From: Bdellovibrionales bacterium
GTDB lineage: Bacteria > Bdellovibrionota > Bacteriovoracia > Bacteriovoracales > Bacteriovoracaceae
Reading direction: 5' to 3'
Assembly (NCBI GenBank): GCA_023250815.1
Contig: JAHEZZ010000004.1
Coordinates: forward strand, 1 to 38,365
DNA length: 38,365 nt
Shown here one piece after another: positions 1,362-33,195 of this stretch (positions are counted from its first letter, which is position 1; every line of letters begins with the position of its first letter). The position numbers and the translations under genes are program-made. The notes beneath the pieces were generated by a model that searched no databases, was not told the DNA's origin, and saw nothing but the letters and a program-made list of their open reading frames with translations.

Positions 1362-2528
1362 ATGAGCGATATAAGCAACAAAGTTAAAGAATATTTTAGT
1401 TTTAAATTACTACACAAAGATATTAATTGTGGCGCCAGAGCAGGTATAATCACAACACCTCATGGTGAAATCCCCACTCCCGTTTTTATGCCGGTAGGTA
1501 CTCACGGGGCAATAAAGGCAATGCCACCCTCCTTTCTTTATCAGATGGATACTAAAATTATTCTTGCGAACACTTACCATTTACACTTAAGCCCTGGCCC
1601 TGAACTTATTCAAAAGGCCGGTGGCATCCACAAATTTATGGGTTGGCAAGGCCCTATTTTAACTGATTCAGGTGGCTTTCAAGTCTTTTCATTACAAAGA
1701 AAAAGTATCAAAGAAGAAGGCGCAGAATTTAAAGATTTAGAAGGCAAAACAATTTTGCTTTCCCCCGAGACTTCTATTAGTACCCAACAAAAATTGGGCA
1801 GCGACATTATGATGGCCTTTGATGAATGCATTCCCTATCCCGCCACTCGTGATTATGTTGAAAAATCTATAGCTCGAACCCATCGATGGCTTAGGCGCTG
1901 TATCGAAAGCTGGAAAAATGAAAAACAGGCCCTTTTTGGAATTATTCAGGGTTCAACCTTTGATGATTTAAGAACAAAATGTGTAGAAGAAGTTTGCTCT
2001 CTTGATCTTCCAGGTTACGCCATTGGTGGAGTTTCGGTTGGCGAAGGCCATGAGTTAATGAAAAAGATTGTAACCTTTACGGCACCTCAAATGCCTACTG
2101 AAAAACCTCGCTATGTCATGGGAGTTGGCACCCCTCAAGATCTCTTAATGATCTGGGAAAATGGCATTGATATGAGCGACTGTATTATTCCCACCAAATA
2201 TGCAAGGGGCGGAACACTTTTTACTTCTCGTGGAAAAATTCGCATCAGGCACCGCAATTACCGCCGAGATTTTTATCCGGTTGATACGAGCTGCGTTTGC
2301 TATACCTGCCAAAATTTTACTCGCTCTTACCTTAAGCACCTTTTTGATTCTAATGAAATTTTAGGACAAATATTAACAACCATCCACAATATTGCTTACT
2401 ATAAAAAGCTGGCAGAAAAGGCACGTGAAGCGATTTTAGAAAATCGCTACCTTGAATTTAAGGCCGAAGTTTCAAAATATTATCCCGTAGATGAAGAAAC
2501 CTCTCAGGAAGATTTAAATAGCGATTAA
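1362..2528 (+). CDS. tgt: Queuine/preQ1 tRNA-guanine transglycosylase
   Basis: Exchanges guanine-34 in the GUN anticodons of Asp, Asn, His and Tyr tRNAs for preQ1, the first tRNA-bound step of queuosine formation. The family signatures are all present: the early MPVGTHGAIK segment, the base-binding LTDSGGFQVFSL block, GYAIGGVSVGEG, and the catalytic block DMSDCIIPTKYARGG with the nucleophilic Asp context. The C-terminal zinc site is visible as CVCYTCQNF followed by a downstream His (YLKHLF). At 388 residues it is close to the usual bacterial length of about 375, with a slightly longer acidic tail. The ATG is preceded by GAGAGTGAA. Its TAA overlaps the stop of convergent serC within TTAA. Confidence 0.96.
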   Translation: MSDISNKVKEYFSFKLLHKDINCGARAGIITTPHGEIPTPVFMPVGTHGAIKAMPPSFLYQMDTKIILANTYHLHLSPGPELIQKAGGIHKFMGWQGPILTDSGGFQVFSLQRKSIKEEGAEFKDLEGKTILLSPETSISTQQKLGSDIMMAFDECIPYPATRDYVEKSIARTHRWLRRCIESWKNEKQALFGIIQGSTFDDLRTKCVEEVCSLDLPGYAIGGVSVGEGHELMKKIVTFTAPQMPTEKPRYVMGVGTPQDLLMIWENGIDMSDCIIPTKYARGGTLFTSRGKIRIRHRNYRRDFYPVDTSCVCYTCQNFTRSYLKHLFDSNEILGQILTTIHNIAYYKKLAEKAREAILENRYLEFKAEVSKYYPVDEETSQEDLNSD

Positions 2529-10303: not shown

Positions 10304-11647
10304 ATGAATGACAAAAGAGATTTAACTCGTATCGAAGACCTCTCAGAGTTTTTGCATCAAAATGACCCTGATGTAGAAAGCAAGCTAACTTCGACAAGCG
10401 AAAATATAACAGAGAACATCCCAGAAGATGACGTTGAAGAAGATGAAAAAATAGCAATAGTAGAGGAAGAAGCTCCACCTCATTTTGATCAACTTCAAGC
10501 AGAACACTCTGATACCAAATCCCCCGAAGATGAAGAGGCAATACCCTCAGAAATAACTCCCCCACCTCCCCTTGAAGTTGAATCTCCCAATGAAAATATT
10601 TTAGAATTACCAGCAGAATCCCCTCCTCCATCGATAGAGGTGAAAAGTGAATTAACTCTTAAATTGCCTCTTGAAGAAGAAAAAAATGATACTCTTCAAA
10701 ACAACGTAGCACTCAAAGGCACTAGCGAGAATATATTTCAAGATAGTTTAACAGTACCCGATTTTAACTCAGAATTGTCACAATCTTTTACTGAAGAACC
10801 TCATGGGGAATCAAGAAATATTTTTACTCAATCACCTGAAATAAGTTCACCCATTGCTCCTCGAGAAACTAGGGAAACTTACAGTGATGTTCGCAAATTT
10901 GCCTCAAATATCGTACCTGGTCTTGGAACAGGAGGAGGGCCACCCTACTCCATTTTGTTAAAAAATATTCGCTACCTGGAAGACACAGAAGATATTTTTC
11001 GTATTCTCACTGATCTTGGGGCAATCAGCGCTGAAAATAAAATAGAAAGTGAAAATGCCCTAAAAACTGGAAATTTATTGTTGTCCCAATTGAGTGAATT
11101 TGCAGCCATCGTTATTGCCCATAAAATTCGACGATTTGATTTAGACTTAGAAATAGGCCCATCGGAACAAATTCACCCCTCAAAGTTTTATAATGAAGAA
11201 GGTCATGGCCCAATTACTAAAAATAATTTTTTAATTAATCGCGAAGATCATCATGAATTTATTAAAACAGACCTCACACCTTCAGATATATTGTTAACGA
11301 CACAACCCATTTTACAAAATTACCAAATTATCCGCTACATGGGTATTGTCAGCGAACACCTTCTAGTGAACAGCGATGTCCTTCACAGAAATCTTCCCCT
11401 TTCTGATGAAGGACAAATTCCCGATCCCCAAACAGACTTTGCTCCGATGACTGAAGACCTCTACAAAGAACTGCAAAATGCCATCAAAAACAAGGCCCTA
11501 AAAATGGAGGGCAATGCAGTTATTGGAGTTAGTTTTCAAATTACCCCAATGAACAAAGAACCGGAATCTAGCGAACTGCTCTATTACCAAATCTCTTGTA
11601 CTGGCAATGTCGTTTTGGCCGCTAGAATTTCTCAGGATCAATTGTAA
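10304..11647 (+). CDS. Acidic, proline-rich protein with C-terminal YbjQ/UPF0145-like domain
   Basis: Start chosen at the ATG of MNDKRDLTRIEDL; the track start is a TTG lying in what looks like promoter (TACAAT at 10291-10296, seven bases before this ATG). 447 residues. About 20-215 is disordered, acidic and Pro/Glu/Ser rich. A folded middle part follows (LLKNIRYLEDTEDIFRILTDLG...), then a C-terminal segment: ILLTTQPILQNYQIIRYMGIVSEHLLV, a helix with ALKMEGNAVIGVSFQITPM, and a final GNVVLAARI strand. That order (TTxPxxxGYxIxxYLGIVxG, then GANAVVGVxxD) is the UPF0145/YbjQ signature. YbjQ-type domains are poorly characterised. The last base of its TAA is the first of the glpD ATG (TAATG), implying translational coupling. 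Confidence 0.7.
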   Translation: MNDKRDLTRIEDLSEFLHQNDPDVESKLTSTSENITENIPEDDVEEDEKIAIVEEEAPPHFDQLQAEHSDTKSPEDEEAIPSEITPPPPLEVESPNENILELPAESPPPSIEVKSELTLKLPLEEEKNDTLQNNVALKGTSENIFQDSLTVPDFNSELSQSFTEEPHGESRNIFTQSPEISSPIAPRETRETYSDVRKFASNIVPGLGTGGGPPYSILLKNIRYLEDTEDIFRILTDLGAISAENKIESENALKTGNLLLSQLSEFAAIVIAHKIRRFDLDLEIGPSEQIHPSKFYNEEGHGPITKNNFLINREDHHEFIKTDLTPSDILLTTQPILQNYQIIRYMGIVSEHLLVNSDVLHRNLPLSDEGQIPDPQTDFAPMTEDLYKELQNAIKNKALKMEGNAVIGVSFQITPMNKEPESSELLYYQISCTGNVVLAARISQDQL

Positions 11648-13068
11648 TGTCAAAACTTCTTGACTGCACCCCACCTTTTTATGAAACATTAATTGTCGGC
11701 GGGGGTATTGTCGGAGCAGGGCTTTTTCGAGATCTCTCATTACAAGGAGTAAAAACACTTCTCATCGATAAGAAAGATTTTGCCTCCCAAACGTCGAGTA
11801 AAAGCTCCAAAATGCTACATGGAGGAATTCGTTATTTAGAAAATGGAGATTTTCACTTAGTATGGGAGGCCTTGCATGAAAAAAACCTATGGCTCAAACT
11901 AGCACCTCATTTGTGCAGAGAAAAATCATTTGTCTTACCTATTTACCAAGATTCTGTAAGGCCATTATGGATGTTAAAGGCGGGGCTTTTAATTTATGAC
12001 ATCCTTTCTAGTTTTGAAAATAAACCCCATAAAATTCTTTTAAAAAATGAACTACAAAAATTTCTTCCAGATTTAAAAACCGAAGGCCTAAAAGGTGCTG
12101 GCCTTTATCATGATGTTTATATGGATGACATTAAACTGTGTTTGGAAAATATTTATGATGGCCAGCAAAACCCCGATTGTCGTGCAGTAAATTACATTGG
12201 CATAACAAAATTTGAAAAAAAAGGTCAATTTTTCTATTGTACTTTAGAAGATGAGATAGACAAAAGTACAAAAGAAATTCTCTGTCATCAACTGGTCTTT
12301 GCAACTGGGCCTTTTACTGACTTGCTTTTAGATAAACTAATTGGAAAAAGTTGGAATCATCATCTGCTTCCATCGCAAGGATCCCATCTGTGGATAAAAA
12401 AAGATGTTTTGAATATTGATAACCCATTAGTATTAACCCCAGCTGATGGCCGAGTTATATTTGTTATGCCTTGGGATTATTCTATATTAGTAGGAACCAC
12501 TGAAGTTCGCCCCTCTGGAGAATTTTTTGATATAAAACCCAAGGCCCAGGAAATTAGCTATTTGTTAAATAATCTCAACGAATATTTTCCAGGGAAAAAT
12601 ATCAACGAATCTCATATTCTTTCCTCATTTTCAGGCATCAGACCTCTGGTCAAAGAAGGCCCTGAAATTTTAGGAAAGGCGGCCAGAGAACACAAAGTTT
12701 TCAGACCCAATCACAATATGCATGTGATCATCGGAGGCAAGTACACTACTTTTAGAAAAATGGTGCAAGAAACAGCAGAATCAATCTGCCATTTTTTAGG
12801 TCGTTCTTATAATTCTCATGCCACTATTGATATTTTAAAAAGGCCCAGCATCTTTCCGGCCTTTGAAGACAATCGCAAACTGCTACCAGAAACCATCGAA
12901 GAAATTATTCATACTGAGTCGATTCGCAAATGGGAAGATCTACTTTTCCGAAGGATTGGTGTGCCCGATGTCCATCATTGGCGCCATGAGATTCCTCTTT
13001 TTAATTTTTTTGCGCCATTCATTGCAAAATACACCAATGAATTAGGGCCTTTTCCCTTTGAAAAATAA
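11647..13068 (+). CDS. glpD: FAD-dependent glycerol-3-phosphate dehydrogenase (aerobic GlpD type)
   Basis: Oxidises sn-glycerol-3-phosphate to dihydroxyacetone phosphate, passing electrons to quinone at the inner membrane. The FAD dinucleotide motif is IVGGGIVGAGLFRDLSLQG at residue 16, followed by the diagnostic SSKSSKMLHGGIRYLENGDF, LVWEALHEKNLWLKLAPHL and, later, GTTEVRPSG and SSFSGIRPLV. At 473 residues it is a little shorter than E. coli GlpD (501) because the C-terminal domain is trimmed. It starts within the stop of the preceding YbjQ-domain gene (TAATG). No glpF or glpK is nearby, so G3P from phospholipid turnover may be the substrate; that is inference. Confidence 0.92.
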   Translation: MSKLLDCTPPFYETLIVGGGIVGAGLFRDLSLQGVKTLLIDKKDFASQTSSKSSKMLHGGIRYLENGDFHLVWEALHEKNLWLKLAPHLCREKSFVLPIYQDSVRPLWMLKAGLLIYDILSSFENKPHKILLKNELQKFLPDLKTEGLKGAGLYHDVYMDDIKLCLENIYDGQQNPDCRAVNYIGITKFEKKGQFFYCTLEDEIDKSTKEILCHQLVFATGPFTDLLLDKLIGKSWNHHLLPSQGSHLWIKKDVLNIDNPLVLTPADGRVIFVMPWDYSILVGTTEVRPSGEFFDIKPKAQEISYLLNNLNEYFPGKNINESHILSSFSGIRPLVKEGPEILGKAAREHKVFRPNHNMHVIIGGKYTTFRKMVQETAESICHFLGRSYNSHATIDILKRPSIFPAFEDNRKLLPETIEEIIHTESIRKWEDLLFRRIGVPDVHHWRHEIPLFNFFAPFIAKYTNELGPFPFEK

Positions 13069-19876: not shown

Positions 19877-20722
19877 ATGCGTTCACCCTGTACACTTTTG
19901 TTATTTGATGGACAGAAAACAACAATCTATCCCTGGACAAAAGCACGGGCATTAGAGGTCGTTTTAAATGGCCCCTATCTTACCACCCTTCATTGCCATG
20001 AACTCATTAAAATTTGTGATTGGTTGAAAGAACATTCCGAAGTACACAGTGTTCTTCTAAGATCTTCAAATCAATTTGAGTTATTTGGACAAGGCCCCGA
20101 TATCAATTATTTAAAAAATAATGTCGATGATATCATAGAAATGGCGGCCCTCATTTATAAATTACAGATAATGATGTTCCATTTACCTCAAATTTTTATT
20201 TGTGATTTAGGACTTGGAGCTTTCAATTTTTCTTTCGAGATTGCTTTAGGTGCACAAATTCATTTAGCTCATGAAGATGCAGAAATATCTATGGATCATG
20301 CTAAATTTGGAATTACGCCAGGTCAATTTAGCATAAAACGCTTCAGCGGCCATCCCGATTTAAGTTTCCATTTAATGCTCACCGGACTTAAGGTCAACTT
20401 AAAAGATGTGAAATTTTTAACCCCAGTCTTTTATCAAAAAGATCAAATTCAAGATCAGCAAAAAATTTTAAATAGCATTGCTACTTTAGCACCTGTCGCG
20501 AGAATTAATATTAAACTTGAATTGGCAAAAAATTTTAATTTACTCAATCATAATTTTAAGATTGATGAGAAATTAAACTTAGGAAAAGAAAACAATGATT
20601 GGGTTGAAGCTTTAAAAAATTGGGAAACAAATGAAAGGCCACAGTTTCAAACTGCCAAAGAATATCTAAATGATTTAAATAAAAATAAAGCTGAATTTAA
20701 TTTCAACAATATACTCAATTAG
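19877..20722 (+). CDS. Crotonase-fold (enoyl-CoA hydratase/isomerase-like) protein, divergent
   Basis: 281 residues with crotonase-superfamily layout. The first oxyanion-hole segment reads SNQFELFGQGPDINYL (canonical FxAGxDLxxL), the second FICDLGLGAFNFSFEIALGAQIHLAHEDAEISMDHAKFGITPG (canonical GxAxGGGxxLALACDxRIAxxxAxFxxPExxxGxxP). The usual Gly-rich AxGGG is replaced by GAFNF, and the catalytic Glu positions are not clear, so ordinary hydratase activity is doubtful. The C-terminal helix region is shorter and charged. The ATG has AAGGAAGG six bases upstream. It overlaps convergent mevalonate kinase by four bases (TTAG). I infer a CoA-ester-binding role without a defined reaction. Confidence 0.7.
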   Translation: MRSPCTLLLFDGQKTTIYPWTKARALEVVLNGPYLTTLHCHELIKICDWLKEHSEVHSVLLRSSNQFELFGQGPDINYLKNNVDDIIEMAALIYKLQIMMFHLPQIFICDLGLGAFNFSFEIALGAQIHLAHEDAEISMDHAKFGITPGQFSIKRFSGHPDLSFHLMLTGLKVNLKDVKFLTPVFYQKDQIQDQQKILNSIATLAPVARINIKLELAKNFNLLNHNFKIDEKLNLGKENNDWVEALKNWETNERPQFQTAKEYLNDLNKNKAEFNFNNILN

Positions 20723-21630
20723 AAAAAATAAACCGGTCGAATCTCATGTGAAGATAAAAGTTTTTTTACCAAATCCAAGTTTTCGGCCATCCCGAGTAAA
20801 AATCCGCCCCCACCTGCACCACAAAGTTTTAAAGCGAAACGTGTATCTTTAAGACCTTCTTTCCAAAGATCAATATAAAGTTTTGGAATCATCGGGGTGA
20901 GATTTTCAAGCTGTATTTGAGAAAGTTTTTTCCACGAATAAAAAAGTTCGCGAGAATTCCCTTCTAAAAAATTATTGATACAATCATGTGTAACCTTTAC
21001 CAGTTCCCCTTCACATATTTTGGCAAATTCAGAAGTTTTACATTTTTCTAAAAAAAGATTTACCAAAGGCTCAGTTCTTCTTGCTCTGCCGGTATTGAGC
21101 AAAAATAGGGCCGCCCCATCTTTATTCTTCCTTTCGGGTATTTGAACTTCAATTAGTTCCCCCTTACCCTTAAATAAAATAGGCCGGTTAATAAAACTAA
21201 TTAATGGGTCCATACCAGAACTGGCCCCATGAAAATGAGATTCCATTTTGGCAAAAAAAACTTTTAAACGATTGGTATCTGCGAGTAAGAGATTTATATC
21301 TTCTTTAGTATAACGATGTAAAAGAGCAGCACATAAAGCCCCTGAACTTCCGACTCCAAAACCCTGGGGAATAGTCGATTCAAAAAACAGGCCCTGTCCA
21401 ATATCAAAATCCATCGATGTAACATCAAAATCAATTGATAAATCATCTGAAATTTGCATTTGTTTAATATGCTGACAGAGAGAGCGAAGCTCTTGATCAA
21501 CATTCTTTCCATCTCTTCTAAAAGTAAGATGGCCCTCAAACAAATTATAAGGCATCGCCAGGGCCATTGAATGCTTTATTATACTGTATTCACCGAACAG
21601 CAAAACCTTAGAATAAAATGATTTATTCAT
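20719..21630 (-). CDS. Mevalonate kinase (GHMP family)
   Basis: Start moved to the ATG of MNKSFYSKVLLFGEYS, one base after the mvaD stop; the track's 38 extra residues read through the end of mvaD. 303 residues. GHMP motifs: KVLLFGEYSIIKHSMALAMP (substrate side), the ATP loop PQGFGVGSSGALCAALL, and the C-terminal KLCGAGGGGFLLGM. HGASSGMDPLISF carries the Asp expected in mevalonate kinases. It is the last gene of the five-gene unit and probably phosphorylates mevalonate to 5-phosphomevalonate. The assignment between this kinase and the GYDIA-like one is by motif resemblance and operon logic and could be reversed. Confidence 0.8.
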   Translation of the reverse strand: MNKSFYSKVLLFGEYSIIKHSMALAMPYNLFEGHLTFRRDGKNVDQELRSLCQHIKQMQISDDLSIDFDVTSMDFDIGQGLFFESTIPQGFGVGSSGALCAALLHRYTKEDINLLLADTNRLKVFFAKMESHFHGASSGMDPLISFINRPILFKGKGELIEVQIPERKNKDGAALFLLNTGRARRTEPLVNLFLEKCKTSEFAKICEGELVKVTHDCINNFLEGNSRELFYSWKKLSQIQLENLTPMIPKLYIDLWKEGLKDTRFALKLCGAGGGGFLLGMAENLDLVKKLLSSHEIRPVYFF

Positions 21631-21631
21631 C

Positions 21632-22786
21632 TTAAGTAAATTCCTTATCCCCATGATCAAGAGCATGCCAATAAAGTGGCCCTTCACCGACTTTATCGTG
21701 AATCCACTTGGCACTTTCAGTACTACTAGTACATAAAGAGGCAAGATCTTGTTCTACCCATTCGCTTACTATTAAAAAATATTCTTGGGGATAAAGCAGA
21801 TGAACATTTGGCCCGGCATCAAGAGTAAAACCTATTGGGATCTTATGATCTTCTCTAAACTGTCTAATTTTTTCAATAATCGCCAATGTATTTGGGCGCA
21901 TTAAAATATAAGGATTTTCACTCGACATCATCAATGCATGAAGATCCATTGCTTCTCTTTCAATCAGCAAAACAAATTCTTCTAAATCGCCTGTTTGTAA
22001 AATCCGAAGCATTTTCTGGGCCCGCAAATTTGCCCTTTTGAAACGCTCAAATTTATAAGGATGCTCGGCAATGAGCTTGTGCCCATCAGAACTAGAAACA
22101 CTCTTCGGTTTTGATTCTACAATCAAAATAGTATCGCAATAATTTTTAAAAATAGGATGAAGGCCGATTAGAGGAACTGCATATTCATCACTTTCATCTT
22201 CAATCAACTTTCGATCAGAAATTCCCCATAGCGCAGCGTGCGGCCAAACTGATCGACAGGCACTACCTGATCCAAGTCTTGCCATTTCTGAGGCATTTTT
22301 CCAAAAAGTATATTGCTCTTCTGAACTGCCCAATTCGGGGAACGCCACCTCATTTTTGATTAACTTTTCAAAAGACAAAAAAGATAAAGCAAGTGCCGCC
22401 ATAGATGAAGCAGATGAGGCAATACCAGTAGAATGAGGAAATGAATTTCTAGAATTTATTTTAAAATGATATTTAAAATAAATTTGGCAAAGATGGGGAT
22501 TTTTTAACAAATGAGATTTAAGTAACGTTTCAATTTTGCCATTAAAATCTTTTTTTTCTTTTTGTTGAAAAACAAAATCAAAACTCAATTGATTAGTTTT
22601 TTCATTTTCCCTAGGGGCCCAAGAAAGTGTTGTTTGGGTACGAGACTTTTCCAGTGTCAGGCTTAAAGAGGCATTACAAGGAAGTTGATTTTCTTTTTTT
22701 CCCCAGTATTTTACCAACGCAATATTGGAAGGAGCACTCCAAGTAATCTCCCCATGATGCAAATTTTGATCAGTGTCGTGTGCCAT
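21632..22786 (-). CDS. mvaD: Diphosphomevalonate decarboxylase
   Basis: ATP-dependent decarboxylation of mevalonate 5-diphosphate to isopentenyl diphosphate. The signature N-terminus SAPSNIALVKYWGKKENQLPCNASLSLTL, the central STGIASSASSMAALALSF and the LGSGSACRSVWPHAALWG block with the conserved Ser/Arg are all present, followed by FTLDAGPNVHLLYP. Length 384 is at the upper end for the family. The ATG is 17 bases inside the end of the upstream kinase gene, so translation is likely coupled. The related mevalonate-3,5-bisphosphate decarboxylases of archaea are an alternative, but the Lys in VKYWGKK and the GSGSACRS block favour the classical enzyme. Confidence 0.92.
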   Translation of the reverse strand: MAHDTDQNLHHGEITWSAPSNIALVKYWGKKENQLPCNASLSLTLEKSRTQTTLSWAPRENEKTNQLSFDFVFQQKEKKDFNGKIETLLKSHLLKNPHLCQIYFKYHFKINSRNSFPHSTGIASSASSMAALALSFLSFEKLIKNEVAFPELGSSEEQYTFWKNASEMARLGSGSACRSVWPHAALWGISDRKLIEDESDEYAVPLIGLHPIFKNYCDTILIVESKPKSVSSSDGHKLIAEHPYKFERFKRANLRAQKMLRILQTGDLEEFVLLIEREAMDLHALMMSSENPYILMRPNTLAIIEKIRQFREDHKIPIGFTLDAGPNVHLLYPQEYFLIVSEWVEQDLASLCTSSTESAKWIHDKVGEGPLYWHALDHGDKEFT

Positions 22787-23852
22787 AATTAACCTGTGAG
22801 GTAAAATTATTCATGAGATTAACGGGTCCAGAAAAAACCATTTGATCAAAAGTTAAAATGGTTGAACAATTTTTAGATTTAAAATATTCTTCAACTTTTT
22901 CTTTGCCATCTTTGGAATAAGCAAGAATAAAATCGCCGCCCCATGCACCTAAGGATTTAACAGTGCCATTAAAATCACTAAAATGAGTTAAGCGGATTGA
23001 CGGAATCTCTAAAAGTTTACTTAAAATAGCTTCATGATCATTCATTAAATTTGAAAAGTGATCGCCCTCTGTACAAGAAATCATGGCATCAACTAAAGGA
23101 TTAATTTGCATGATAATTTTATTTAAATATTCTTTTGAATATTGTTTTTTCTTAAAAAGTTCAACAGAGCTGCTAGTTTTTTGTTTTTTCCCCAAATAGA
23201 CGAAATAAAGTTCCGTGGCAAAAGGAGGAGAAAATTGCACATGTGACCACTGCGGAGTTGCTCCTTTTTTTTCATAGAGAATAGGGCCATCTGCTTGAGC
23301 AACAGCTACATCAATACCAGAACCGCCCATGGTCTTAAAAAGCAATTCAAAAGGGCCAGTAAAGGCCCATGAGGCGATATTGTGAATAAGTGTAGAACTT
23401 GAACCAAGTCCCCAATCCATAGGAAAAGAAACTTTAGTCTCGGCAATCACTTCAACATCGTCCCGTAAGAAATGAGGGTTTTGTTTCCTCGCCTGTCGTA
23501 GTATCTTTTGCAAAATCAATGCTGCTTCTGATGTATTGTCATCTAAAAGATTAAAACGCCAAAATTCAAAACGAGCTTCAAACCAAATATTTCCTTGGTA
23601 ATCATAACTTTTCCAGTGAAGGATTGGAGTAAAAGATTGGTTGTATCTTACAGAAAGAGATTGCCCCCATCTGGTGGGCAACCCCAATCCTTTTCCACCT
23701 TCAAGAACAAGATATTCTCCTGCTAAAAGTACTTTGCCGTTACCCCAAAAAAATTGGTCTGGCCCCAAGCTAGAAGTCGTGCCCAAAGAAGGCATTTCTT
23801 CTTTTAAATTTAAATTTGAATGAAATCCCATGTTCATGTCATCATTCATCAT
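22770..23852 (-). CDS. GYDIA-like GHMP kinase, probable phosphomevalonate kinase
   Basis: Start set at the ATG giving MMNDDMNMGF, two bases after the mvaA stop; the track's TTG lies inside mvaA. 360 residues. WGNGKVLLAGEYLVLEGGKGLGLPTRWGQSL, DYQGNIWFEARF, VSFPMDWGLGSSSTLIHNIASWA and MGGSGIDVAVAQADGPILYE follow the pattern of the GHMP kinases found in mevalonate clusters of Bacteroidota and named for a GYDIA motif (GIDVA here). The classical Staphylococcus MvaK2 is different. In this unit the missing step is phosphorylation of 5-phosphomevalonate, so that role is inferred from context. The C-terminal GxWGGDFILAY replaces the usual GAGGGG loop. Confidence 0.78.
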   Translation of the reverse strand: MMNDDMNMGFHSNLNLKEEMPSLGTTSSLGPDQFFWGNGKVLLAGEYLVLEGGKGLGLPTRWGQSLSVRYNQSFTPILHWKSYDYQGNIWFEARFEFWRFNLLDDNTSEAALILQKILRQARKQNPHFLRDDVEVIAETKVSFPMDWGLGSSSTLIHNIASWAFTGPFELLFKTMGGSGIDVAVAQADGPILYEKKGATPQWSHVQFSPPFATELYFVYLGKKQKTSSSVELFKKKQYSKEYLNKIIMQINPLVDAMISCTEGDHFSNLMNDHEAILSKLLEIPSIRLTHFSDFNGTVKSLGAWGGDFILAYSKDGKEKVEEYFKSKNCSTILTFDQMVFSGPVNLMNNFTSQVNYGTRH

Positions 23853-23854
23853 GA

Positions 23855-25240
23855 TTATTGCCAAGTTCTAGTCATTTTGAGGTATTCTCGAACAGCGCTA
23901 TATGACACTGTCTTATCACTAAAATATTCTTTCGCCGCAATTCTTTCTTCTTCACTAGCGGCAAAACTGTTTAGCATATTTAAAAGATGCATTTTCATAT
24001 GGCCTTTTTGTATTCCTGAAGTCACTAGCGACTTTAAAGCGGCAAAATTCTGCATTAAACCAATTGCCGCCATAATTTGCATTAAATCAGAAGCTTTCGG
24101 ATTGCCCATTAGTTGCAAGGAAAATTTTGAGAGAGGATGAAGTGATGTGAGCCCCCCAACAGTTCCTACCGATAGAGGTATTTCAAGCCAAAATATAAAT
24201 TTTCCATTTTCTATTTTGGAATTGCTGAGCCCCTTATATTTTCCAGAAGAGGAAGCATAAGCATGAGCGCATGCCTCCACCGCTCTAAAATCATTTCCGG
24301 TACTCAAACTAACAGCATCAATACCATTCATAATTCCTTTATTGTGAGTTGTCGCACGGTAAATATCATTTTGGGCAATCCAAGTGGCCAGATTAAATCT
24401 TTGGGCAAATGCTTCGGCACTCATATCTATCGCAGGATCAAGCAGTTCACTCACTAAACAAGAAACTTCAGCGCGCACTAAACATTCTGGAGTATAGTTG
24501 GAAAGAATAGACATTATAATATCGCATTTTTCCTTTTTAAATTTACCACTCTTATAAAATTTTTCTTTAAAACTTACCGCCAAACTTTCTAATACTGAAT
24601 TGATAAAGTTGGCCCCCATAGCATCGCAAGTTTCAAAATGGGCAAAAAGCTGAACGTAGTGGGAATTTAAGTTTTCCTGATACAAAGAAGTTGGTAAAAC
24701 TTGCTCAGTCTCTTTAAATATAATCTCTAAGGATTTAAGACCGCCCCCTCGATCCTCCATCTTTTTTAAAAGAGGAGAAGCATCTTCAATCATTTCATTT
24801 TTAATTTCAAAAAAAAAGTTGAGCAATTTTTCTTTTTCACCAGAATAAATAAGATGAACTTGTCCACTTTTTCTGGCACCTAAAATAGAGGTTTTAACTC
24901 CTCCCTTATTTTTCCAAAAATTGGCAGATTTAGAACAAGCTGCCACCACGGAACTCTCTTCAATAACCAAAGGAACAGTGTAAAGATTTTGGTTTATTAA
25001 TAAATTAGGAACAATTCCCATTGGAAAAGGAAAATTTGAAACGGTATTCTCGCTAAATTCATCGAGTAATTGCTGCAAATTTTGGTCTTGATTCCAAAAT
25101 TTTTGCAAGATTTCTTTACAATCAAAGTGCCTGTTTAAATAATTAATTTTTTCTTCTTTTGACAATTTTGAAAGGCCGCTAATCTCAATACCTGGCCCTT
25201 GAAATTGGGCCGATAAATATTCACTACTAATATCCGACAT
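23855..25240 (-). CDS. mvaA: Hydroxymethylglutaryl-CoA reductase (class II-like)
   Basis: Converts HMG-CoA to mevalonate with NAD(P)H. Recognised by VPLVIEESSVVAACSKSANFW (catalytic Glu), CDAMGANFINSVLESLA (about 205), TTHNKGIMNGIDAVSLSTGNDFRAVEACAHAYASSSG (catalytic Lys and Asp region, about 297), LEIPLSVGTVGGLTSLHP, and the C-terminal LLNMLNSFAASEEE segment. Spacing and wording match the bacterial class II enzymes; at 461 residues it is somewhat longer than their usual 425-430. The ATG has AGGTGA five bases upstream. fni ends 19 bases before it and the GHMP kinase starts 2 bases after it. Confidence 0.93.
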   Translation of the reverse strand: MSDISSEYLSAQFQGPGIEISGLSKLSKEEKINYLNRHFDCKEILQKFWNQDQNLQQLLDEFSENTVSNFPFPMGIVPNLLINQNLYTVPLVIEESSVVAACSKSANFWKNKGGVKTSILGARKSGQVHLIYSGEKEKLLNFFFEIKNEMIEDASPLLKKMEDRGGGLKSLEIIFKETEQVLPTSLYQENLNSHYVQLFAHFETCDAMGANFINSVLESLAVSFKEKFYKSGKFKKEKCDIIMSILSNYTPECLVRAEVSCLVSELLDPAIDMSAEAFAQRFNLATWIAQNDIYRATTHNKGIMNGIDAVSLSTGNDFRAVEACAHAYASSSGKYKGLSNSKIENGKFIFWLEIPLSVGTVGGLTSLHPLSKFSLQLMGNPKASDLMQIMAAIGLMQNFAALKSLVTSGIQKGHMKMHLLNMLNSFAASEEERIAAKEYFSDKTVSYSAVREYLKMTRTWQ

Positions 25241-30760: not shown

Positions 30761-31969
30761 TCAAAGATCTAAAAAAACGTTCGACCTTGTGGTCATGCCA
30801 CTCATCCAAGGAATAAAAAGAAGATTGTGGCCACTGCTTTCCGTCAGTTGCTTTTTTTCCGCATCTTCAAAATAATGAACTACCATATCTTTTTCTTTGC
30901 CTGTCGGTGAACTCAGTTTGAGTTTGGCGGGGGCCTTTATTTTTTGCTCAGGATCTCTAAGTAAAATCGCCATCCGACCTTGCTCTTTGCAGACATCGAC
31001 AATCTGGCCAATCATTAATTGATGGCGGTTTTGCAGGCGATTATTTTTTAGTTTAGGAAGTAGAATATCGCTTTTGTTTGTCAGAAAAAAACCACGATTA
31101 ACAGGCCTCTCATAAGTATTTTTTAATTCTAAAAATTTTTCTTGGCCAAAAATATCTGTCAGTGACAACGCCTGATTAGTCAAACGTACTCTTTTTTCTG
31201 CCTCTTCAAAGCGCAAATCAATAACCCAACTATCAAGTCCGACTTCACGTAATTTTTCCGGGATATCGAGCAAGCAAAGATCTTTGCTATTAAACATAAA
31301 AGTACCCTGCTTATTTTGCAAAATAGGGAATCCTTTATGGGGTGATTCTTCACTGCCCCCTTCAATCATCAAATCTTCTTTTATTTTTAATATTTCCTCA
31401 AAATGAGGAGTCAGTAATTCCCTTGGTGTTGAAAAAAGGAGAAGGCGTCCAAAAAGCAACAAATCTGTTTTAATATTAAAAAGATGCAAAGATCTGGCAA
31501 TACTTTTAACCTCCATGAAGGGGAGTTCAGGAGAAAGACTTACCCTTTTAAGGGCCGGCCCAATAATGGGATGATTCGCCAAACTCATTATGGAATGAGG
31601 ATTGTGAAAGGACGTCTCTAAATTAAGATGCAAATTTATTTTAGGAAGTTCCTGAGCGCAAAATAAGGCAACACCCAGATCGCATACTTTTACCAACAAT
31701 TCTTTTGGGGAATATTTAAGCGCCTCTAAATAAAACTTTTTAAAAGAGTAAAAAAGTCCTTCTCGCAAAGATTCATGGCAATACATATCGAATTCTATAA
31801 TAACGGAAAGTTTCAAATCTCTTGCGGCTTGAATAATGACATAGGATTCTTCTGCAGAAGTTTTGCCAAATCGCGAGAGGCCAAGGGGGGAAATAATCAC
31901 ATGAGAAACCGCTGTGAGGTCAATCAATTTAAGTTCATCTGCCTTTTCTACAAAGATAGTGTACTTCAT
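30761..31969 (-). CDS. U32-family protein, divergent partner of TrhP
   Basis: Start set at the ATG of MKYTIFVEK, which overlaps the stop of the upstream U32 gene as ATGA; the track's 14 extra residues lie inside that gene. 402 residues. The barrel pattern of U32 proteins is visible: VSHVIISPLGLSRFG, LSVIIEFDMYCHES, LLVKVCDLGVALF, INLHLNLETSFHNPHS, LKRVSLSPELPFMEV and the diagnostic LLLFGRLLLFSTPRELL. The Cys cluster of the catalytic partner is not evident. B. subtilis has an adjacent TrhP1/TrhP2 pair for 5-hydroxyuridine formation at U34, so a joint role is plausible but inferred. Confidence 0.72.
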   Translation of the reverse strand: MKYTIFVEKADELKLIDLTAVSHVIISPLGLSRFGKTSAEESYVIIQAARDLKLSVIIEFDMYCHESLREGLFYSFKKFYLEALKYSPKELLVKVCDLGVALFCAQELPKINLHLNLETSFHNPHSIMSLANHPIIGPALKRVSLSPELPFMEVKSIARSLHLFNIKTDLLLFGRLLLFSTPRELLTPHFEEILKIKEDLMIEGGSEESPHKGFPILQNKQGTFMFNSKDLCLLDIPEKLREVGLDSWVIDLRFEEAEKRVRLTNQALSLTDIFGQEKFLELKNTYERPVNRGFFLTNKSDILLPKLKNNRLQNRHQLMIGQIVDVCKEQGRMAILLRDPEQKIKAPAKLKLSSPTGKEKDMVVHYFEDAEKKQLTESSGHNLLFIPWMSGMTTRSNVFLDL

Positions 31970-33195
31970 TGTAAAACTTCTCGGCGTAAAATAACATGGG
32001 GACTGGCACATTTAACATAGGGAATTCTCACCACCGACCCCGGTTTAGTGCTTTCAATTTCACTACCACTTGCACTTAAAATTTTATCCAAATAAATCTT
32101 TTCACTCTTTCCTCTAAAAGGAAGAATTTCTAAAGTTTCACCGCAGCTAAATTTATTTCTCACTTCTATTAAAAGATACTGCCCTTCTTTTATTTCTAAA
32201 ACGGTACCAATGGCATCAAAAGTTTTTTCTTCACTCTCCCGCTTATTATAGATACTGCTAATATCCGCCGGGCCAATCAATGAGCCGTTAGTATAATCAC
32301 GGTGAGAAAACTTGTTCAGTTCTTCTGTCCAACCCTTTTCTTTTTTTAATTTAACAAACTCAGTGGGATTTTGCTGGTAGCACTCTAAGGCCTCACGGTA
32401 AATTTTGGTAGTAGTAGCAGCGTAGAGCGGCCCCTTCATTCGCCCCTCAATTTTAACAGAATCAATCCCGGCATCAAAAAAATGAGGGATCACATCGACT
32501 CCTTCTAAATCCTTCGAACTCATAAAATAAGTGCTGATCTCTTGGCCGTTGTTTTTTAATTTGTATTCAAAACGGCAACTGTGAGCGCAACCTCCGCGGT
32601 TACTATCCCTACCTTGAGTATAATTTGAAATGACACAATGGCCGGAGTAGGACATACACATCGACCCGTGAATAAACATCTCAATTTCAAGCTTCGTTTT
32701 TTCTTTGATAATTTTTGCTTCATTTAAAGTTACTTCCCGCCCCAAAACAATACGTTTCACTCCCCGCTCTTTCCAAAAGAGAGCGCTTGAAACATTTAAA
32801 CAACTGGCCTGGGTAGAAAGATGAATGACGAGGGATTTATAATTTTGAGAAATAAAATCGACAACTCCAAGATCAGAAACAATCACCGCATCTACTTTAA
32901 TATCGCTCAAAAATGTTAAAAACTCATCCAGCCCCTCAAAATCTTGACGATGAAAAAAACTATTGAGTACTACATAGACTTTACTTTTCCTTGCATGGGC
33001 ATACTTCACCCCTTCTTGAAGTTCGCTATTAGTGAAGTTTTCTGATGCTGCTCGTAATCCAAATTTTTGCCCCCCAAGATAGACGGCATCGGCACCGTAA
33101 TGAACCGCAACTTTAAGTTTTGAAAGACTCCCCGCCGGCGCCAAAACTTCTGGCCTTTGGGGCAATTTTTTAAAAGCAACTTCTAAGGAATCCAT
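31966..33195 (-). CDS. trhP: U32 family protein, probable tRNA 5-hydroxyuridine synthase TrhP
   Basis: 409 residues. RPEVLAPAGSLSKLKVAVHYGADAVYLGGQKFGLRA is the standard U32 opening, and EMFIHGSMCMSYSGHCVISNYTQGRDSNRGGCAHSCRFEY carries the four-cysteine cluster shared with E. coli YegQ/TrhP, followed by SVKIEGRMKGPLYAATTTKIYREAL. TrhP makes ho5U34 in tRNAs. YegQ is longer because of C-terminal additions; this copy ends with a small beta domain (IGTVLEIKEGQYLLIEVRNKFSCGETLEILP). AAGGG six bases before the ATG serves as SD, and TATAAA lies directly between them: the gene start abuts a double-hairpin repeat, so promoter and SD nearly coincide. An alternative start is TTG at codon 11. Confidence 0.85.
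   Translation of the reverse strand: MDSLEVAFKKLPQRPEVLAPAGSLSKLKVAVHYGADAVYLGGQKFGLRAASENFTNSELQEGVKYAHARKSKVYVVLNSFFHRQDFEGLDEFLTFLSDIKVDAVIVSDLGVVDFISQNYKSLVIHLSTQASCLNVSSALFWKERGVKRIVLGREVTLNEAKIIKEKTKLEIEMFIHGSMCMSYSGHCVISNYTQGRDSNRGGCAHSCRFEYKLKNNGQEISTYFMSSKDLEGVDVIPHFFDAGIDSVKIEGRMKGPLYAATTTKIYREALECYQQNPTEFVKLKKEKGWTEELNKFSHRDYTNGSLIGPADISSIYNKRESEEKTFDAIGTVLEIKEGQYLLIEVRNKFSCGETLEILPFRGKSEKIYLDKILSASGSEIESTKPGSVVRIPYVKCASPHVILRREVLQ

Follow-up and report, generated by a model that had tools for sequence, protein, structure and literature searches.

The genomes of the Bacteriovoracaceae, a bacterial family known for predators of other bacteria, are biased away from GGCT, and its complement AGCC, towards GGCC. 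This bias is real, strong and a family-wide trait, and we consider it highly probable that it is the work of a directional process that replaces GGCT by GGCC.

The window, that is the whole stretch of DNA analysed (38,365 nucleotides, contig G000:C8), comes from a genome assembly of 2.69 Mb in 254 contigs that is 86% complete. Features of the window are:

1-38365: the whole window, with 248 GGCC sites and AGCC/GGCT down to 43, both strands counted
1362-2528, plus strand: tgt (queuine tRNA-ribosyltransferase), by which the genome was assigned to the Bacteriovoracaceae
11647-13068, plus strand: open reading frame of 473 aa, FAD-dependent oxidoreductase of the DAO family, containing the stretch in the next line, with 13 GGCC
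12001-13068: stretch counted in an earlier reading made from the sequence alone (the sequence-only reading), with GGCC at 12085, 12100, 12160, 12308, 12448, 12543, 12658, 12681, 12842, 12858 and 13046
20719-25240, minus strand: mevalonate pathway cluster of diphosphomevalonate decarboxylase, GHMP kinase and HMG-CoA reductase
30761-33195, minus strand: two peptidase U32 genes in tandem

The sequence-only reading had reported, for 12001-13068, 11 GGCC, 1 CCGG, 2 GCGC and 0 CGCG, with about one GGCC expected. Our recount gave exactly these numbers and a zero-order expectation of 1.15. The sites fall in all three codon phases, as claimed (phase 0, n = 5; phase 1, n = 3; phase 2, n = 3), and the 6 GGCC given for positions 1-1000 were reproduced. 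Over the window, 248 GGCC were observed versus 152 expected under a third-order (maximal-order) Markov model (O/E 1.63, z = 11.3), while the control words CCGG and GCGC stood at O/E 0.95 and 0.88 under the same model. Sixteen further contigs of the same genome, each taken alone, gave O/E of 1.0-1.8 for GGCC and 0.17-0.56 for GGCT. In 211 kb outside the window the pooled values were 1.51 for GGCC (z = 19) and 0.30 for AGCC (z = -33), so that the excess survives third-order correction beyond the window instead of falling to about 1, the value that the sequence-only reading had named as speaking against it. The GGCC bias is a genome-wide property of composition that the 12001-13068 stretch merely samples; a local element there is ruled out, since other contigs show the bias too.

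Synonymous codon shuffling of 198 genes yielded 537 GGCC versus 1148 observed (z = 37), and the control ratios in the same genes were 0.97 for CCGG and 1.00 for GCGC. In the oxidoreductase reading frame alone, the 13 observed sites compare with 4.3 ± 1.7 after shuffling. Codon or amino acid choice, already judged insufficient in the sequence-only reading, is ruled out as the cause by these shuffles and by the presence of the bias in all codon phases and in non-coding DNA.

The larger half of the signal, which that reading overlooked, is the depletion of AGCC/GGCT. This is the most depleted tetranucleotide of the window and the strongest signal of all words (O/E 0.19, z = -16.7); over 249 kb of the genome AGCC has an O/E of 0.28 (z = -37). 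Part of the GGCC excess under the Markov model is the mirror of this depletion. On both strands of the window, GGC is followed by A 299, C 496, G 139 and T 43 times. Of the pyrimidines that follow GGC, a share of 0.13 is T; the next lowest value among the 64 trinucleotides is 0.36. The low share holds for every preceding and following base; by codon phase it is 0.21, 0.37 and 0.04, and in non-coding DNA, where the bias had also been claimed to appear, it is 0.15. Alanine codons following a G in this genome are GCT in 28 cases versus GCC in 633. The GGCC excess arises mainly at the expense of GGCT/AGCC, and because C prevails among the pyrimidines after GGC (87%) whatever the codon phase or flank, and outside coding DNA as well, we read the bias as a directional exchange of GGCT for GGCC and not as a liking for GGCC. 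Two other words are depleted in the 249 kb, CGCG (O/E 0.37, z = -12) and GGACC/GGTCC (O/E 0.35, z = -9); these losses have the look of ordinary restriction-site avoidance and seem distinct from what happens at GGCC.

Relative to synonymous shuffles, AGCC stands at 0.20, GGCT at 0.50, and the inner-position neighbour GGTC/GACC at 0.72-0.80. The strong effect is confined to the outer position of GGCC, with the inner neighbour mildly reduced. A motif favoured for its own sake is disfavoured by these values, since both transition neighbours should then lose alike. The bias does resemble HIP1 (GCGATCGC) of cyanobacteria in that a palindrome is over-represented genome-wide and in all codon phases. 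Unlike HIP1, the excess is coupled to depletion of one transition neighbour and is part of no longer motif: among the top words of 5 to 8 letters, none containing GGCC was found except AGGCC at 1.13. The HIP1-like character proposed in the sequence-only reading was therefore rejected, since no enriched word of octamer scale grows from GGCC and none of the flanking bases abolishes the effect.

The nearest relatives by tgt were records named Bacteriovoracaceae, Bacteriovorax (the group includes the culturable Bacteriovorax stolpii) and Halobacteriovoraceae. The signature was visible in most of them and was not seen in the Firmicutes and Geobacter records compared via tgt. We then surveyed at most 20 kb from each of 60 further Bacteriovoracaceae genomes. 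As a rule, AGCC was the tetranucleotide with the strongest depletion there, and GGCC mostly ranked among those with the strongest excess. Signature strength, expressed as the log odds ratio of GGCT/GGCC relative to YGCT/YGCC, ranged from -3.2 to 0 over the family genomes, with the window at about -2.5 to -2.6; 59 of 61 family genomes lay below -0.35. Nineteen loci from other families of the phylum had a mean of +0.16 (range -0.34 to +0.65), and none was shifted. A Mann-Whitney test separated the two groups (p = 1e-10, a value that overstates independence because the genomes are related). When strong and weak family genomes were compared, AGCC (-1.23 ln units) and GGCC (+0.68 ln units) were the two largest of 136 tetranucleotide shifts. 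Contrasts within genera ran in the expected direction in 11 of 14 cases (p = 0.08), which is suggestive but not significant.

To compare explanations of the codon tables, we modelled conversion (GGCT and AGCC moved into GGCC by one parameter), avoidance (their removal) and promotion of GGCC. From weak to strong genomes, alanine codons after G change from.236 to.010 for GCT and from.339 to.57-.67 for GCC, and the G-ending share of Lys, Glu and Gln codons goes from.37 to.96 before GCC and from.27 to about.05 before GCT. With composition pinned to control contexts, conversion beat both avoidance and promotion, for the window's own genome as well as for each of the four strength bins, although in the own genome it still left a large deviance. 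With composition left free, avoidance and conversion could not be distinguished in the own genome and avoidance was better in one bin; the modelling case for conversion therefore rests on the control contexts.

Avoidance would mean that GGCT/AGCC is a nuclease target or otherwise harmful and that the rise of GGCC is a by-product. It is in keeping with a depletion that exceeds the GGCC gain in size, with the fit just described under free composition terms, and with the share of GCC among non-GCT alanine codons in the own genome,.527 after G versus.517 after T, as pure avoidance predicts. With composition fixed from control contexts it yields too little GGCC (for example 115 expected versus 272 observed) and fits worse than conversion in every set, and we know of no precedent for a nuclease that attacks a non-palindromic 4-base word throughout a family. 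We regard avoidance as unlikely.

Synonymous sites in aligned orthologues were saturated between genera, which made it impossible to polarise changes at that distance. Close relatives among the strong genomes showed 1 C/T difference versus 44 conserved sites at the outer C of GGCC, and 18 versus 19 at YGCC (p = 4e-7 for the contrast, on small counts). C/A differences persisted at the outer C. Such a pattern is also what a purely protective modification of the outer C, for example N4-methylcytosine, would leave: C-to-T changes would be lowered, GGCC would persist and GGCT would not be renewed, with no repair enzyme involved. However, even with C-to-T blocked completely, GCT after G is predicted to remain at 5.6-9% (a range that depends on the assumed transition bias), whereas the strongest bins have about 1% and the own genome has 2.3%. 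Protection also sits poorly with the enzymes present. The one that is universal in the family (see below) belongs to the C5 family, whose product, 5-methylcytosine, deaminates more easily; PF01555 (N4/N6) methylases occurred in 36 of 59 family genomes and none was found in the own genome, and an m4C methylase was rejected as the cause because PF01555 is not universal. Synechocystis, which carries GGm4CC, shows no signature on its plasmid pSYSM, though there it is the inner C that is modified. Taken together, protection alone appears quite improbable to us.

Raising T-to-C 20-fold and lowering C-to-T 10-fold predicts A.287, C.57, G.138 and T.006-.009 after G, and the strongest bin has A.283, C.573, G.134 and T.010; the two factors were picked by hand, and the agreement shows sufficiency and is no fit. 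The modelling supports the direction from GGCT to GGCC. Together with the comparison of close relatives, it leads us to prefer, for the outer base of GGCC, raised T-to-C combined with blocked C-to-T to either GGCT avoidance or passive protection.

A C5-cytosine methyltransferase was present in 62 of 62 good-quality family genomes and in 48 of 48 genera. The enzyme is about 380-430 aa long. The catalytic motifs are in place: it matches PF00145, and 61 aligned sequences contain GGPPCQGF. The gene is syntenic: 27 of 30 loci have an mnmA-like gene adjoining it, and inspection of the 30 loci revealed no recognisable restriction enzyme at its side. In the own genome it is represented by a 374 aa piece on contig G000:C97 and an overlapping 5' part on C232, the gene being split over two contig ends; the overlap contains amino acid differences, which suggests that the assembly mixes strains. 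Contig G000:C38 encodes another C5-methyltransferase, unrelated to the first and 397 aa long, next to a class-V aminotransferase gene. Outside the family only 33-34% homologues were found, in 2 of 110 genomes. The methyltransferase and the GGCC signature share one family boundary, and this common boundary is the one observation that speaks for GGCC as the putative recognition site. The sequence-only reading had offered a GGCC methyltransferase or mismatch-repair bias as an alternative. That alternative is favoured by the loss of GGCT/AGCC and by the family-universal C5-methyltransferase. The target domain of this enzyme does not align with that of HaeIII. The closest methyltransferase of Neisseria (about 36% identical) lies in a two-methylase operon, which we take to be of the GGTGA type, and is uninformative. 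Another gene adjoins the family methyltransferase in 22 of 30 loci; it matches no Pfam family and resembles an ATPase by eye, and in the own genome it is not adjacent.

Signature strength spans -3.2 to 0 although nearly all family genomes carry the methyltransferase. Because weak genomes carry it too, another determinant of strength must exist, and the missing repair factor is a plausible one. One subtype of the target domain was weaker (mean -0.87 versus -1.52), and it was set aside as the cause of the gradient since the difference rests on non-independent genomes.

We searched for candidate repair enzymes. No Vsr (PF03852) was found over the cut-off in the own genome, as assembled at 86% completeness, and two weak matches there proved on inspection to be unrelated long proteins. 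Across the family, Vsr occurred in 3 of 95 genomes (absent from 92), DUF559 in 3 of 59, and NucS over the cut-off in 2 of 48; all three were rejected as the repair enzyme because they are rare. Almost the whole family has UDG and HhH-GPD glycosylases. The HhH-GPD proteins inspected keep the EndoIII lysine (pattern matched in 24 of 30 loci, no match in 6), and a MIG-type glycosylase was rejected on the pattern-matched sequences. Among the matches listed, the three most strongly biased genomes (G025, G062 and G029) each have one EndoIII-size HhH-GPD match and no MutY, unlike most relatives; this may be fortuitous, or it may give a clue to the repair background.

The same data bear on a further explanation, a context-dependent mismatch-repair or replication bias of the family that is unrelated to a coincidentally universal methyltransferase. 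The near-ubiquity of the UDG and HhH-GPD glycosylases would suit such a bias, as would the failure of strength to track methyltransferase presence inside the family. Yet signature and methyltransferase end at the same family boundary, and the site is an exact palindrome in which a cytosine is altered, which is what a process linked to a methylase should produce. We judge an unrelated bias to be rather unlikely.

Very-short-patch (VSP) repair is known from bacteria carrying Vsr beside Dcm or restriction-modification systems. It restores T:G mismatches in the site to C:G, thereby lowering C-to-T and raising T-to-C. As a positive control, 50 kb of E. coli K-12 contained 22 CTWGG versus 346 CCWGG, a log odds ratio of -1.63 against other first bases. 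That VSP repair alters word counts has been described (PMC5337935, citing Bhagwat and McClelland 1992). As with Dcm/Vsr at CCWGG in E. coli, a short palindromic site has one cytosine at which the C-variant is in excess and the T-variant is scarce, in genomes with a C5-methyltransferase and no adjoining restriction enzyme. Differences from Dcm/Vsr are the site itself (GGCC), a stronger bias in the strongest genomes (down to -3.2 versus -1.6), and the lack of Vsr in the own genome and nearly all relatives. Since Vsr, its defining gene, is lacking, we do not class the Bacteriovoracaceae system as Dcm/Vsr.

GGCC, here the putative site, is shared with M.HaeIII/M.NgoAII and with M.Ssp6803II of Synechocystis, an abundant-site methylase outside restriction that methylates the first C of GGCC as N4-methylcytosine (PMC6560206). 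The target domain of the family enzyme does not align with that of HaeIII; unlike in the family, pSYSM in the host of M.Ssp6803II has no GGCT-to-GGCC bias (log odds +0.48), so GGCC methylation alone is insufficient for the bias. On pSYSM, GACC/GGTC is depleted (z = -5.8), possibly as a mirror-image effect at the inner base, the C that is N4-methylated in this organism. Mig.MthI is an archaeal T:G glycosylase beside the GGCC restriction-modification system of Methanothermobacter and guards the inner C. Like the process proposed here, it attaches T:G repair to GGCC methylation without Vsr; unlike it, the HhH-GPD proteins inspected in the family retain the EndoIII lysine.

The best reading of these results, to which we give about an even chance, is a VSP-like T:G repair tied to the universal methyltransferase. 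A sequence-specific process would target the outer base of GGCC/GGCT. Wherever the last C of GGCC newly changes to T, the change would be reverted; T:G mismatches in GGCT would be resolved to C:G, and GGCT would drain into GGCC on both strands. Such repair would accompany 5-methylcytosine placed at GGCC by the orphan C5-methyltransferase. By analogy with E. coli, the methylated and guarded base would be the outer C, and the repair would be carried out by a dedicated enzyme that is no recognisable Vsr. More tentatively, and with the odds somewhat against it, this may be an ancestral maintenance system of the whole family, in which an orphan GGCC C5-methyltransferase and an undescribed non-Vsr T:G repair enzyme have rewritten the genomes from GGCT to GGCC.

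In the open-access literature we found no paper on GGCC methylation or this bias in relatives of Bdellovibrio or Bacteriovorax, and its novelty is provisional. If the reading is correct, a whole family without Vsr bears a footprint equal to or stronger than that of Dcm/Vsr at another site, and methylation-linked T:G repair would have been invented more than once. The results also point to a family-universal methyltransferase with a conservation comparable to that of Dam or CcrM, and they indicate that codon choice, pairs of neighbouring codons and k-mer binning in these genomes are shaped by the bias.
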